From Mesorhizobium opportunistum WSM2075 (GTDB lineage Bacteria > Pseudomonadota > Alphaproteobacteria > Rhizobiales > Rhizobiaceae), in contig NC_015675.1 of the NCBI RefSeq assembly GCF_000176035.2, positions 558,001 to 622,000 on the forward strand: 64,000 bases of DNA, read 5' to 3'. The position numbers were made by a program, and so were the translations under genes. A model generated the notes under the pieces. It was not told the origin of the DNA. It saw only the letters and a program-made list of their open reading frames with translations, and made no database searches. Shown one piece after another: positions 8,625-18,933 of the stretch; position 1 is the first letter of the stretch, and every line of letters begins with the position of its first letter.

Positions 8625-9587
8625 TTAGTTTCCAGACATCGCCTTCAGATTGGCGGCGTATGCGTCGACGTCATCCTTGCCGATGATCTTGGTCGGGATG
8701 ATGATCAAATTGCCCTCCGGGATGCCCGACTTGTCGCCCTTGAGATAGGCGGCCATCAGCTTCATGCCCTGATAGGCCCATTCGAAGGGCTGCTGCACGA
8801 CGGTGGCGGCGATGGTGCCTTCCTTGACGCCGCCCAGCGTGATCGGATCGTCATCGAAACCGACGACGGTGATCGAGCCGAGCTTGCCGGCGTCGCGCAG
8901 CGCTTCATAGATGCGCGGCGTGTTGTAGGAATAGAAGCCGACCATGCAGGTGACGTCGGGGCTGGCGACCAGCGCGTCCTCGACATTCTTCTTGGCGCGC
9001 GCCTGATCGATGTCGTCGCCGCGCACGTCGACGAGCTCGATCTTGGTGCCGGCCAGACCATCCTTCATGCCCTGGATACGCTCCTTGGCATTGTCGGCGC
9101 CGAGCAGGCCGACGAAGCCCAAGCACTTGCCGCCATTGGGCATCGCCTTCTTGGCGATCTCGGCAGCCTGCTTGCCGGCATCGACGTTGGACGAACCGAT
9201 ATAGGCGACGCGCTTGGTCTGCGGGGCGTCACTGTCGGTGGTGAACAGCGCCGTCTCCGAGGCGATCTTGTTCAGGCCGTCGGTCGAGGTCTTGGGATCG
9301 ACGGCCGAGACCATGATGCCCTTGACGCCGGCCGTCACCAGATCGTCCATCAGCCGCTGCTGGATGGCGACCGAGGACTGTTCCGGATATTTGAGCTCGA
9401 GCGTGTAGTCGGGCAGTTCGCCCTGCGCCTTCTTGACGCCGGCTTCGGCCGCCTTCCAGAAATCGGAAGCGCCGTTGACGACGAAGGCCAGCGTCGGCTT
9501 GTCATCGGCGCGCGCGATGGCTGTCGCCGTGAGGCCAAGCAGCAGCGCTGCGGTGGCCACGGATGCATTGCGTATCAAGGATTTCAT
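8625..9587 (-). CDS. Periplasmic sugar-binding protein of an ABC importer (RbsB type)
   Basis: A 320-residue binding protein, first gene of a minus-strand importer operon. The ATG at 9587 follows GGGAGG with good spacing, so it is preferred over the in-frame TTG six bases upstream. The N-terminus has a lysine/arginine start, a Leu/Ala-rich core and an A-R-A cleavage site near residue 25. The mature part fits Peripla_BP_4: a P-T-L-A-F-V-V-N-G-A first strand, V-S-A-V-D-P-K-T-S, and V-V-G-F-D-D-D-P in the C-lobe. It is transcribed divergently from a LacI-type regulator 606 bp away, which probably controls it. The ligand is unknown. Confidence 0.92.
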   Translation of the reverse strand: MKSLIRNASVATAALLLGLTATAIARADDKPTLAFVVNGASDFWKAAEAGVKKAQGELPDYTLELKYPEQSSVAIQQRLMDDLVTAGVKGIMVSAVDPKTSTDGLNKIASETALFTTDSDAPQTKRVAYIGSSNVDAGKQAAEIAKKAMPNGGKCLGFVGLLGADNAKERIQGMKDGLAGTKIELVDVRGDDIDQARAKKNVEDALVASPDVTCMVGFYSYNTPRIYEALRDAGKLGSITVVGFDDDPITLGGVKEGTIAATVVQQPFEWAYQGMKLMAAYLKGDKSGIPEGNLIIIPTKIIGKDDVDAYAANLKAMSGN

Positions 9588-10193
9588 GTTCAACCTCCCG
9601 TTTTGGTGCAGCCATTCGGCTGACCGGTCTTAGTCACTAGAATTGCTTGCTCACCTGAATATGCCGCTTGCGGCTTGGACGCCCCTCCTCCTCAAGGGTA
9701 CCCGGCACTGAAAGAATGACGTCGTTCCAGCCACGAGCACGGACTTTAGAGACTCATCCCTCATTCGTAAATAGTCCGATTTGTCTGACATATCACATGT
9801 CCGAGACAAAGCTTCGCGGGGGGCACTATCCGCTCGCCATCGGGCCGTTCACATGCACCTCCCGCCGCTCCGGATCCAACCGGACCTGGACGCGCAGATC
9901 GACGTTACAGCGCATTTTTGTATTAGTAAACAGTATTAGTTTGACCTTGCTGGGGCGCCCATCGTTGCGACATCGCGGCTGCTTTGCCGACAAACCGCTG
10001 TGTTGGCGCGCGGGCGCTTACGCCTTTCTGTTCCTGCCGTTCCGGGATGCACATCGTCACATGGCGATGGACGGACAGTCTACTAATAGATATAAACGCA
10101 GCGACGATTCCTATAAGCCGGCGACGCCGCGCCGTCTTGCCGGACGGCAAGGCCGCCGCTAGGACAGGCCGGGGATCTGGGGACACGAATGCA
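9588..10193. promoter_or_regulatory. Divergent control region between importer operon and LacI regulator
   Basis: This 606-bp gene-free stretch separates the minus-strand importer from the plus-strand LacI regulator. It contains an imperfect palindrome at 9780-9810 (TTTGTCT-GACAT, 5-nt centre, ATGTC-CG-AGACAAA). Two direct copies of TATTAGT lie at 9921-9927 and 9934-9940, and an inverted copy ACTAATA at 10082-10088. These are candidates for operators of the adjacent regulator. No protein reading frame here looks credible: in-frame codons upstream of 10194 encode nothing recognisable. No RNA gene was recognised. Confidence 0.5.
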
Positions 10194-12605: not shown

Positions 12606-13136
12606 TCATTTCTCCGCAGACGTCCACACATGGGCGAACTCGACACCGCGAAGACCGGCGTTCCGGACCTTCTCAACGAAACTGCCGGTGACGTAGACGG
12701 CCGAGGCCCGCATCGGCAGTCTGAAGAGCTCTGCGGCGCCAATTCTCTCTGTCCTGAAGACATGACGCTCGATGTCGAGGATGTCTCCATTGTCGAAATA
12801 GGCGATGCGCGACCGCTCATGATCGAGGGCGTCGAGGACTGTCGTGGCGTTGAAAAGCCAGACCGCTTCCCCCTTTATGGGCAGAAGCTGCCCGTGCTCG
12901 ACAAGAACCGGCGCCAGTGCTTCGACGGCGGGCTTCTTCAAGATCGGCGCGTGTTCGCCCAGCCACGGGAAATCGGAGTAGGTCCGACCTGCCGTATCCA
13001 GTTTCATGACAGGGGCGATCCAATCCTGAATGACGCGTCCGTCCAGCGCGAAAAAGGTCTCATAATCGTCGTCATCAGCCGGGAATATCCATTCCTGATC
13101 TTCGACGACTTGGAACTTGTGTACGGTCAGTGGCAT
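12606..13136 (-). CDS. Imm11/DUF1629-type immunity-like protein
   Basis: A 176-residue soluble protein. Its layout matches my memory of the Imm11 (DUF1629) family: F-F-A-L-D-G-R-V-I-Q-D-W early, S-D-F-P-W, a central L-F-N-A-T-T-V-L-D-A-L-D, an E-L-F-R-L-P segment and a late V-R-N-A-G-L-R-G-V-E-F. Members of that family are proposed immunity proteins of polymorphic toxin systems and are also found as orphans. No toxin-like gene is adjacent: the neighbours are a hydrolase and a GlxA-type regulator. The start has a GGAG Shine-Dalgarno. Actual function is unproven. Confidence 0.6.
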   Translation of the reverse strand: MPLTVHKFQVVEDQEWIFPADDDDYETFFALDGRVIQDWIAPVMKLDTAGRTYSDFPWLGEHAPILKKPAVEALAPVLVEHGQLLPIKGEAVWLFNATTVLDALDHERSRIAYFDNGDILDIERHVFRTERIGAAELFRLPMRASAVYVTGSFVEKVRNAGLRGVEFAHVWTSAEK

Positions 13137-16326: not shown

Positions 16327-16854
16327 GTGGCCGACAAGAAGTCGTTCATGAAAATTGCGCTTACGCCGACTCGTGATATTATATCGCCCCCGGTGCCTAT
16401 AGTGCCCTTCGCTGATTGGGACTATTATTACACGACCAAGTCACTTGAATGGCGCGCAGATAAAGGCATCGCGATGGAACCGGTCGCGGTCAGCGTTCCC
16501 GCCGGCTTTGTTACAGATCTTGCCAGCATTCCGCCGGAATTCTGGAGCGGATTACCTCCTGCGGCGCGCTATTCTTATCCGGCGATCGTCCACGATTATT
16601 TGTATTGGTTCCAGCCATGCAAGCGAGAAGAGGCCGACGGAGTCCTTAAGGCAGCTATGGCAGATATGAAAGTGTCCTCGGCCACGGCTTTCATCATCTA
16701 TCAAGCAGTGCGGTTGGGCGGCGGAAGAGCTTGGGACGCTAACGCAACTATGCGCGACGCCGGTGAACGCAGGGTTCTCTGCAAATATCCCTCTGATGTC
16801 GCGACGACATGGAACCAATGGAAGCAGCAGCCGAACGTTTTCACTCCTGAATAG
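16327..16854 (+). CDS. DUF1353 family protein
   Basis: A 175-residue soluble protein from GTG at 16327, behind AGGGAGAT. The core V-P-A-G-F-V-T-D-L-A-S-I-P followed by a Tyr-rich Y-S-Y-P-A-I-V-H-D-Y-L-Y is the signature of DUF1353, a family common in phages and in scattered bacterial accessory loci; its biochemical role is unknown. Conserved Asp and His residues there could bind metal or act in hydrolysis (inference). Its TAG overlaps a possible GTG of the caspase-like gene, whose better start is 36 bp on, so the two form one transcription unit. Base composition is lower in G+C than in neighbouring genes. Confidence 0.75.
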   Translation: MADKKSFMKIALTPTRDIISPPVPIVPFADWDYYYTTKSLEWRADKGIAMEPVAVSVPAGFVTDLASIPPEFWSGLPPAARYSYPAIVHDYLYWFQPCKREEADGVLKAAMADMKVSSATAFIIYQAVRLGGGRAWDANATMRDAGERRVLCKYPSDVATTWNQWKQQPNVFTPE

Positions 16855-16889
16855 TGCTCTATGCGTCCAGTTCGTTTTGGAGGATGCCG

Positions 16890-18563
16890 ATGATCGCGAT
16901 GAGCCAGGCACTGGTGATTGGCAACGGCGCATATGCGCCCAATCTTAAGCTTGCTTGCCCACCGAATGATGCGACCGAGGTCGGTCGTACGCTTGGCGAG
17001 CTCGGCTTCCAAGTGACGCTTGGTATTAATCTGAGTTTTGAAACGACACTGGCCCAGATCGAAAAGTTCGTAGCACTGGTAAATGAGCCTACCACGACCG
17101 TTTCTCTGCTTTATTATTCTGGCCATGGCCTTCAGATCGACGATCAGAACTACATGGTACCAATTGATTTCGATCAATTCGCAGAACAGAAAATCGCACA
17201 ACTCGTCAGCGTGCAATCGATCGTTGAGAAAATGACGAGCAAAACAGCCGTACGCATCGTATTGCTAGATGCTTGCCGCAACAACACAGATGCTCGTGTT
17301 TTTGTTGGCGGCAAGGGCATCAAGGTCGGCAAAGAAATACTCATCGACAACCAGCCCATACCGGCGACCGGGCTTGCTTCGATGCAAGCCGCAACCAACA
17401 CGTTCATCGCTTTCGCAGCCGCGCCAGGGCAGGTAGCCTATGATGGATCGCCCGGCGACCTCCTTAGTCCGTTCTCGGCGAGTTTCGTCAGGTATCTCGA
17501 TGCGGTTGACCTTCCGATCTCCAACCTGACGAGTCGAATTCGTCAGGATGTCCTCAATCACACCGACGGGAACCAGCGCACGTGGGACCAGTCGTCGCTG
17601 ATGGCACCTTTCTATTTCAATCCGGGCAGCCTCCTCCTTTTCACAGGCAACCTAATGGCTCTCGTCGGTCTATTTCTTTCACTCATCCCTTACTCGCTCA
17701 TTCTGGCCTGGCCGAACCGCACATGGCCATGGCTGATGATCGCGTCCGCTCTTCCTATGATATCCTTGGGCATCTTGCTCTTCGGTGCACAGACAGTCTA
17801 TTCGCGGTTGCGAGGACGTTTTGAAGGCGATTCCAATGCGCCTCATACCATCGTGGAGCATCTCAGGACCGCTGCCCAGAAGGGTTTGCTCGGCGGCTAT
17901 CTCGGCTCATCCGCCGCATCGCTACTCCTAAGCCTGCTCTATTATCGAGGCTGGGATTGGCCTACGGAACCGTTTGGAGCGTTGTTGCTCGAAATTACCA
18001 TTGCTACGGCATTGACGGCTTGCCTGCTCGGTGCGCTTGGCCTTTTTTTCGCACGTGCCTCGATAGGTTGGAGTGGTTTCTATGTGACAGATGACCGCTC
18101 GCCGCGCCGTATGGTAATCGGCGCCACTTGCGGCGGAGCACTGGCTGGGGTGATCGCCGCACCACTGATAACGATGTATTTTGGCAAGATTCACGATCGG
18201 CCGGAAATGACGCCAGGCCTTTTGCTTCCCGGATCGATCCTCGGAGCTTCGATCATCATTTTTTCGATCGTGAATTTTGACTTTGAGCGGCTGAGCGCGC
18301 GCCGCGTGCGAACTAGCGCAGGCGCGGCAGTCGCGGCGCTCGCCTTGGGCGGGGTCGCTGCCTGCATTGTTTTCGGACCATTATATATGTTTGGCGTGGT
18401 TGATGCAGTTAAACTCTATCTCGAAATCAACGCGAACAACCTGCTTGGGCTAGCCAGCGGCGGCGCCGTATATGGCCTTCCTGTTGGTGTTGTCCTCGGT
18501 GTTGTCATCGGCTCCGCTATCGTTTTGACGGAGAAATGGTCGCGCAAGCCAGTGCTTGAGTGA
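16890..18563 (+). CDS. Membrane-anchored caspase-family (C14-like) protease
   Basis: 557 residues. Residues 1 to about 250 form a caspase/metacaspase-like domain: A-L-V-I-G-N-G-A-Y at the start, the catalytic His in Y-Y-S-G-H-G (His79) and the catalytic Cys in L-L-D-A-C-R-N-N (Cys129). From about residue 250 on there are roughly eight hydrophobic segments, so the protease should face the cytoplasm from an inner-membrane anchor. ATG at 16890 is chosen because GGAGG (16879-16883) precedes it at ideal spacing. It is coupled to the DUF1353 gene. Bacterial caspase-like proteins occur in stress-triggered or anti-phage suicide systems; that role is inferred here. Confidence 0.85.
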   Translation: MIAMSQALVIGNGAYAPNLKLACPPNDATEVGRTLGELGFQVTLGINLSFETTLAQIEKFVALVNEPTTTVSLLYYSGHGLQIDDQNYMVPIDFDQFAEQKIAQLVSVQSIVEKMTSKTAVRIVLLDACRNNTDARVFVGGKGIKVGKEILIDNQPIPATGLASMQAATNTFIAFAAAPGQVAYDGSPGDLLSPFSASFVRYLDAVDLPISNLTSRIRQDVLNHTDGNQRTWDQSSLMAPFYFNPGSLLLFTGNLMALVGLFLSLIPYSLILAWPNRTWPWLMIASALPMISLGILLFGAQTVYSRLRGRFEGDSNAPHTIVEHLRTAAQKGLLGGYLGSSAASLLLSLLYYRGWDWPTEPFGALLLEITIATALTACLLGALGLFFARASIGWSGFYVTDDRSPRRMVIGATCGGALAGVIAAPLITMYFGKIHDRPEMTPGLLLPGSILGASIIIFSIVNFDFERLSARRVRTSAGAAVAALALGGVAACIVFGPLYMFGVVDAVKLYLEINANNLLGLASGGAVYGLPVGVVLGVVIGSAIVLTEKWSRKPVLE

Positions 18564-18593: not shown

Positions 18594-18843
18594 CCCCCGA
18601 GAGATGGGTGACATCTCAGTCTGGATAGATGGGTTACACTTTCGGCCCTTTGCAGGGAGAGCAAGGTGCCTTGGAAGGAGTGTAGCGTCATGGAGGAGCG
18701 GCTGAAGTTCGTCGCCCGGCTGCTGGCGATGGAAGATGGTGGCGCTGGGCCGAGGGTTCGATATCGCGCAGGACTGATTACAAGATCCTCGCGCTACAAA
18801 GCGTTACCCTCCGGTATAAACCGTAACTCATGTCTCCGGGCCG
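18594..18843 (+). mobile_element. Internally deleted IS481-family element (remnant)
   Basis: The left part carries CCCGAGAGATGGGTGACA (18596-18613). The right part carries the roughly inverted CGTAACTCATGTCTCCGGG (18822-18840). Between them is the broken start of an IS481-type transposase. The partly matching inverted ends enclosing a short transposase fragment suggest a deletion derivative. The element lies directly beside the tRNA-Arg gene. Terminal repeat assignment is inference from remembered IS481 ends. Confidence 0.5.
18666..18806 (+). pseudogene. IS481-family transposase, N-terminal remnant
   Basis: From GTG 18666 the frame reads P-W-K-E-C-S-V-M-E-E-R-L-K-F-V-A-R-L-L, the conserved opening of rhizobial IS481-type transposases. 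After about 22 codons the homology moves to other frames: a G-R-G-F-D-I piece in the +1 frame, then R-R-T-D-Y-K-I-L-A and a final R-Y-K. At least two frameshifts and loss of the DDE catalytic domain make it nonfunctional. The original frame runs on into the tRNA only as an antisense artefact. Confidence 0.7.
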
Positions 18844-18856
18844 TGCAGGCAAATAT

Positions 18857-18933
<77 letters not shown>

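Follow-up and report, generated by a model that had tools for sequence, protein, structure and literature searches.

A DUF1353 gene paired with a membrane-anchored caspase-like protease in Mesorhizobium opportunistum: a possible protease-gated phospholipase

In the soil bacterium Mesorhizobium opportunistum WSM2075 a gene for a DUF1353 protein is followed directly by a gene for a membrane-anchored protease of the caspase fold, and the two very probably form a real functional module. Because a proven phospholipase A2 belongs to the DUF1353 family and its catalytic residues are conserved here, the DUF1353 protein probably acts as the effector, and the protease probably as its switch. Our preferred reading, to which we give an even chance, is that the pair is a protease-gated phospholipase. 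We infer that one protein cuts the other, and in the same way infer which of them controls the other, what sets the pair off and what follows. The pair looks like a lipid-cutting relative of the caspase-gasdermin and caspase-nuclease (canu) self-destruct systems.

The gene pair and its genomic setting

The window, that is the whole stretch of 64,000 nucleotides that was analysed, covers positions 558001-622000 of a 6.88-Mb single-contig genome. An earlier note, made from the letters of the window, had described a DUF1353 gene next to a membrane caspase-like protease gene. Both assignments were borne out by Pfam: the DUF1353 match (E 2.4e-20) reaches 72.4 bits at a cut-off of 22.5, the Peptidase_C14 match (E 3.5e-29) 102.6 bits at a cut-off of 21.4. 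The genes are separated by 35 bp (Table 1). The listed open reading frame of the protease begins with a GTG that overlaps the DUF1353 stop codon (16854); a start at ATG 16890 (or 16899), behind a GGAGG, is likelier, and ATG 16890 yields the residue numbering of the earlier note.

Table 1. Features of the DUF1353-protease locus, in window coordinates
Feature	Position	Strand	Basis
DUF1353 gene, 175 aa, predicted cytoplasmic phospholipase A2	16327..16854	+	Pfam PF07087, E 2.4e-20
Predicted catalytic His89-Asp90 and Asp104	16591..16638	+	Invariant in 25/25 sequences of alignment A2
C-terminal tail from Arg149, WxxWKxxPxVF, candidate gate	16771..16842	+	Tail in 18/19 paired proteins
Caspase-fold protease with membrane domain, 557 aa from ATG 16890	16890..18563	+	Peptidase_C14 match
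Catalytic His79 and Cys129	17124..17276	+	Invariant in 28/28 aligned homologues
Eight-helix membrane domain, residues 252-551	17643..18542	+	Model secondary structure, hydropathy, loop charges
Remnant of an insertion sequence, presumably IS481-like	18596..18837	+	L251 match, 86% over 210 columns, plus a 45-column piece
tRNA-Arg (CCG), edge of variable site	18857..18933	-	ARAGORN

The pair sits between a flavin monooxygenase gene and the tRNA-Arg(CCG) gene, with the insertion-sequence remnant before the tRNA. Remnant and tRNA were both found as the note had placed them, and its lower G+C was confirmed, with 51-57% across the pair and mostly 59-69% on both flanks. Positions 18596-18799 are 86% identical to the start of a long transposase-like open reading frame in the relative G010 (locus L251), where it lies past the same tRNA gene; the fragment in the window gave no Pfam domain. 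Beyond the tRNA gene the sequences are mutually unrelated in all seven relatives that show the tRNA in the fetched stretch (one of them only 527 bases long), and among them only the insertion sequence of L251 matches the window. Two further relatives, with no tRNA in the fetched stretch, are outside this count. The tRNA-Arg border is a variable site. An integrase scar (a repeat of the tRNA end) was looked for around the pair and none was found. We take the pair for an accessory module that is rare and mobile and spreads horizontally.

The other flanking genes scanned with Pfam encode an FAD monooxygenase, an AraC-type regulator, Imm11 and DUF1003. The Imm11-family immunity gene (12606-13136, minus strand, E 1.3e-11) adjoins the AraC-type regulator and a HAD hydrolase.

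Recurrence of the pairing

The pairing is conserved across genera, in other soil bacteria too, and the neighbour count that the earlier note had suggested as a check came out in favour of its two-gene module. DUF1353 lies directly upstream, on the same strand, at 7 of 7 distinct loci encoding a caspase with the membrane domain: the window, M. carmichaelinearum (L039), M. comanense (L040), a metagenome-assembled Hyphomicrobiales genome (L041), G1551 and plasmids of Rhizobium ruizarguesonis and Sinorhizobium fredii. None of these seven membrane caspases stands without DUF1353; a protease gene found alone in core chromosomal contexts is what the note would have counted against its proposal.

For a count that is not circular, loci were collected with DUF1353 as the sole query, and each had to reach E <= 1e-30 in the search that returned it. 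Most of these genes escaped a gene caller trained on the codon usage of the host, so the neighbours were counted afresh independently of it. A caspase gene adjoins 15 of the resulting 24 strong DUF1353 loci and 0 of 125 other DUF1353 loci. The 24 comprise five plasmid strains (three with caspase), two loci from the family search (the window and G615, both with caspase), 16 Bradyrhizobium-type loci in 15 genomes (genus of G301; ten with caspase) and one viral contig (none). B. barranii is present among the plasmids as two records, and G763, which is the S. fredii plasmid again, was not recounted. In B. barranii the caspase gene lies on the opposite strand, 18 bp from DUF1353, and at three Bradyrhizobium-type loci it lies upstream. 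The nine strong loci without caspase are two Methylobacterium-group plasmids, with insertion sequences close to DUF1353, L235, L236 (with a divergent subtilase), L240 (CHAT, PG-binding, DUF1353), L244, L246, L118 and a second copy in G1633. G971, just below the threshold (E 1.3e-28), has no caspase within 1.5 kb. In the control a broader C14 model was used and a caspase reading frame anywhere in the fetched stretch was counted, with flanks of about 1.5 kb at genome loci and up to 8 kb at viral ones; the 27 family loci include weak hits (E down to 1.7e-4), and L118 was counted among the 24 instead. It is a control for caspase neighbours, those of the trypsin, subtilase and CHAT type being uncontrolled.

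That two unrelated accessory genes landed together by chance is very hard to credit. The source genome has eight C14 matches and DUF1353 is common in phages, which would make a chance encounter easier; against it stand the recurrence across genera, partner swaps with the pairing kept and the lack of a caspase neighbour at the other 125 loci, for which chance pairing was set aside.

The partner caspases vary, with eight helices, one helix (G615, G1726, G1633, G1761) or a signal peptide, and with fusions to OmpA (G1563) or FGE-sulfatase (G1761), while DUF1353 is constant. Their x-H-G and D-x-C motifs are kept in 18 of 18. By contigs of the same size, 29 of 99 caspase clusters go with one of the best 120 of 277 DUF1353 clusters, an indirect link that a few short ones may owe to chance. 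Protein distances were compared over 24 pairs (27 of these matches, the two of the ambiguous length 2892 being excluded, plus the window's own pair added by hand, with four dropped for length). They correlate with r 0.47, a value reached by 0 of 2000 permutations; part of this correlation can come from shared host ancestry. By neighbour count and by co-divergence, effector and protease are encoded together and co-inherited.

A protease relative extending past the caspase domain was found in 2 of 90 genomes of the genus (source genome included), namely the source and G065, and in 397 sampled genomes of the order the membrane domain matched its own genome only. A contig search with the protease alignment gave 30 loci, three of them with the membrane domain; one with the single protease protein gave no matches.

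The earlier note had called DUF1353 frequent in phages. This holds for the family; a match as strong as in the paired subfamily was found at one of 80 viral loci (L118). A phage origin of the paired subfamily was rejected, for of 250 viral DUF1353 loci 80 were kept, and among these one (L118) is tailed and none has a caspase reading frame. A viral search with the caspase alignment gave seven loci, each matching the caspase half alone. The DUF1353 protein of the viral contig L118 (7872-8564) has a paired-type tail and a signal-like N-terminus, and its gene is followed, on the other strand, by a 212-aa gene without Pfam match. At another locus, L238 (2495-9986), DUF1353 is flanked on both sides by C14 genes of more than 1000 aa, both confirmed by Pfam.

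The DUF1353 protein as a predicted phospholipase A2

We consider it probable, from the sequence, that the DUF1353 protein of the window has phospholipase A2 activity. Such activity was measured for TtaP, a DUF1353 member with the residues His70-Asp71 and Asp85 (PMC11525133, text available in part), and the same spacing of 15 residues runs here from His89-Asp90 to Asp104. All 19 protease-paired DUF1353 proteins retain His89 and Asp90, and 18 retain Asp104; G1707 has Asn at this position, yet its caspase is present. Because fold and profile searches with DUF1353 returned no phospholipase A2, and none was among the PDB matches, the assignment rests on family and residues. One weak match of the fold to a phage 'Phospholipase A2' model came at rank 29 (E 1.4). 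Pfam lists DUF1353 as of unknown function, and PADLOC gave no family for it at E 1. The matching phage family in PHROGs (phrog_1158, 98.4 bits) is labelled tail assembly chaperone, which the activity of TtaP suggests may be wrong. A signal peptide is not visible in the window's protein.

The earlier note had let DUF1353 sense or regulate and the protease act. These parts are probably reversed, given the activity of TtaP in the available text of PMC11525133 and the kept catalytic residues; nothing indicates a sensor, and DUF1353 as sensor was set aside because of its enzyme family. The domains fused to DUF1353 include, in the accessible portion of that paper, 'several different protease domains', which agrees with a link between DUF1353 and proteases.

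TtaP over-expressed in E. coli needed no partner protease for its activity (PMC11525133, in part). This counts against the protease-gated reading, as do the nine caspase-less strong loci and the Asn-bearing G1707. It would suit two independent effectors of one conflict module, which attack lipids and proteins after a common trigger and do not process each other, and so would the caspase, CHAT, lysozyme and Tle1-type lipase genes near the R. ruizarguesonis and S. fredii plasmid loci. However, the two genes are direct neighbours, the predicted compartments match in 18 of 18 pairs (see below) and the proteins co-diverge, all of which suggests that the two come into contact; we think independent effectors unlikely.

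The authors of TtaP favour a role in secretion and propose release together with a muramidase neighbour (PMC11525133, in the part available). In the same manner, phospholipase and wall-cutting enzymes could together free plasmid- or phage-like cargo. A phage-type lysozyme gene lies 285 bp upstream of the S. fredii DUF1353 gene and about 9 kb off in R. ruizarguesonis, and a PG-binding gene adjoins DUF1353 in L240. Yet no wall-cutting gene was seen beside the pair in the window or at the other loci examined, and lysozymes accompany bacterial gasdermins too and hence do not discriminate between the readings. We regard such a release module as decidedly improbable.

Three DUF1353 proteins (L239, 5877-6794; L241, 16305-17402; L245, 5448-6437) have an extra N-terminal domain with a hydrophobic stretch inside; in the one scanned, that of L239, no Pfam match was found outside DUF1353.

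The caspase-like protease

By C14 profile and by fold the protease belongs to the caspase-fold peptidases. The His/Cys dyad proposed earlier stands, with His79 (17124-17126) in S-G-H-G and Cys129 (17274-17276) in D-A-C-R, and the estimate of about eight C-terminal helices agrees with model secondary structure and hydropathy. The AlphaFold model that shows the eight helices (mean pLDDT 80.9) was made for the near-identical protein P0001, which has at least two differences. The charges of the loops fit a cytoplasmic caspase domain. Asp27 and Asp127 are invariant in the alignment of protease homologues; by alignment offset they fall on what we take to be the acidic S1 pocket residues of MALT1, and from them cleavage after Arg or Lys is predicted. 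The PADLOC caspase model matches the front half only (residues 19-145, E 4.2e-8).

Matched compartments

The compartments of the two proteins agree in 18 of 18 DUF1353-caspase pairs (Fisher 3.1e-5), as predicted from hydropathy and scored with the partner known. Eleven DUF1353 proteins without a signal are paired with caspases that are likewise signal-less and have helices after the domain. The other seven have a twin-arginine start, and their partner caspases have an N-terminal hydrophobic signal or anchor and no helix after the domain. Three of the eleven (G1726, G1633, G1761) are less certain, their DUF1353 proteins being extended at the N-terminus by a part that contains a hydrophobic stretch; without these, 8 + 7 pairs remain, free of exceptions (about 1.6e-4). 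The topology of the G1678 caspase, of the exported type, is also less certain, for a second hydrophobic stretch near residue 818 could turn the caspase domain inwards. By the same rule the signal-less, helix-bearing form makes up 11 of 18 paired but 0 of 67 distinct unpaired C14 proteins with complete reading frames, a non-random set gathered by searching with this protease; 60 of them have a signal-like stretch and no later helix, and seven have neither.

That 11 of 11 signal-less partner caspases bear membrane helices would also suit a lipid relay, in which DUF1353 or its lipid products come first, the membrane domain of the caspase senses the bilayer and the protease is the final effector; eight helices would moreover seem to exceed the needs of an anchor. 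Since the caspases of exported pairs have no later helix, however, membrane sensing cannot be general, and we find such a relay rather improbable.

In L235 (2324-6415) a subtilase, a trypsin-like protease and DUF1353 are encoded one after the other on the same strand, 12 bp apart, and both the trypsin and its DUF1353 protein have export signals. Possibly this is an exported protease cascade that ends in a phospholipase.

The C-terminal tail as a candidate gate

In bacterial gasdermins the end that is cleaved is the C-terminus. Their cleavage lies about 20 residues from one end (PMC9612521), and canu pro-nucleases are cleaved at gating insertions (PMC12799240), as far as the available parts of these papers go; for this reason the C-terminal tail of DUF1353 is the first place to seek a gate. 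The tail, W-x2-W-(K/R/Q)...(V/K)-F, terminates 18 of 19 protease-paired DUF1353 proteins, and in the 19th (L041) its coding sequence lies immediately beyond an in-frame stop. This DUF1353 gene (9411-9905) is from a metagenome-assembled genome, and its stop just before the tail is either a sequencing error or a real truncation. All 19 paired proteins have Arg149, and 17 of them have Lys or Arg at position 166. With a stricter pattern the tail was found in 1 of 80 viral DUF1353 proteins, which by its printed end is L118; with a looser one, in 72 of 120 database relatives among the matches listed, many of which are short contigs.

In the structure model the tail is ordered (pLDDT 89-96), unlike the disordered canu insertions, and this counts against the tail as gate. 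Arg149 and Lys166 may be structural rather than cleavage sites.

Proposed mechanism and comparison with known systems

That the protease acts on the phospholipase, as the protease-gated reading has it, seems to us evenly balanced. The cytoplasmic DUF1353 phospholipase A2 would be kept inactive or off the membrane, while the caspase-fold protease would be tethered to the inner membrane, its active site facing the cytoplasm. A signal, sensed directly or via the membrane domain, would switch the protease on. It would then cut DUF1353 after Arg or Lys, perhaps within or just before the tail, and thereby free phospholipase activity at the membrane. Lysophospholipids would build up and arrest or lyse the cell, a self-destruct response against phage or stress.

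There is precedent for such gating, as both canu pro-nucleases (PMC12799240) and bacterial gasdermins (PMC9612521) are activated by caspase-like partner proteases according to the portions of these papers at hand. In the canu system KaeCanABC a MALT1-like caspase gene lies beside a pro-enzyme, predicted or proven, as it does here, and effectors of the same class can be partnered by trypsin-like proteases instead (PMC12799240, in part). The effector there is a nuclease, whereas here it is a predicted phospholipase, and the caspase here, known from its sequence, is membrane-anchored; the neighbour of the window's caspase is DUF1353 and not an MBL-fold pro-nuclease. In gasdermin systems, too, a membrane-damaging effector is encoded beside a caspase- or trypsin-like protease, and lysozyme-like genes are sometimes near, as at some loci here, as are amidases (PMC9612521, in the text available). 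Gasdermins form a pore, in contrast to the lipid hydrolysis predicted here, and Pfam, PADLOC and NCBIfam found no gasdermin in either protein. TtaP, the founding DUF1353 phospholipase A2, has the same His-Asp...Asp spacing and likewise no signal peptide. It differs in being 125 aa long without the extensions found here, and in being encoded with muramidase and toxin genes (PMC11525133, in part). Prokaryotic metacaspases or orthocaspases share the C14 domain and the His-Cys dyad, and 104 of 671 metacaspases have membrane helices, among them a cyanobacterial type whose helix is C-terminal; neither a C-terminal domain of eight helices nor a neighbouring DUF1353 gene appears in the accessible part of that survey (PMC3501461).

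In the open-licence PMC literature, covered mostly at the level of titles and abstract beginnings, we found no caspase-DUF1353 or bacterial caspase-phospholipase pair; DUF1353 itself is mentioned there in four papers. The word 'phospholipase' occurs neither in the canu paper (PMC12799240) nor in the metacaspase survey (PMC3501461), and PMC11525133 has no 'caspase' and twice 'protease', never as partner of TtaP. No catalogued anti-phage system in PADLOC matches both genes.

The pair may serve in defence or stress death. Defence is plausible by analogy, from the accessory setting and precedent; phage defence in particular we hold to be somewhat less likely than not. No known defence gene adjoins the window's pair. 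Elsewhere, defence-like neighbours picked by eye, without control, are an OLD/AriA-like ATPase in L234 and, near unpaired DUF1353, SIR2 and Abi genes in L073 and L072.

Effectors gated by proteases, namely gasdermins and canu nucleases, have recently emerged as a link between bacterial immunity and animal cell death, and the canu authors suggest that other classes of protease-activated enzymes may exist (PMC12799240, in part). A caspase-phospholipase pair, if true, would fill the lipid slot among them as a counterpart of gasdermin and canu. It would also give a role to part of DUF1353 and to the signal-less, membrane-anchored type of bacterial caspase. Tentatively, protease-gated phospholipases could be a separate class of bacterial self-destruct switch, in which a tailed DUF1353 phospholipase A2, with the tail as gate, is combined with interchangeable proteases (caspase; trypsin with subtilase; perhaps CHAT). 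There would be two compartment forms, with both proteins cytoplasmic and the protease tethered to the inner membrane, or both exported; the exported version would extend the protease-gated idea outside the inner membrane. As a two-gene system, the pair is open to direct testing.

Two further observations concern the wider neighbourhoods of these gene families. PG-binding or lysozyme, catalase or peroxidase, and Tle1-type lipase genes occur near DUF1353 in L073 (4206-10695), L071 (4562-11967) and L240 (6652-11998). Two C14 genes about 4.2 kb apart, their frames some 420-590 and 850-950 aa long, are shared by many Mesorhizobium-type genomes (for example G012:C60:177253 and 181460; G048:C2:86556 and 90785; G083:C189:59667 and 63878) and are apparently a conserved caspase pair.
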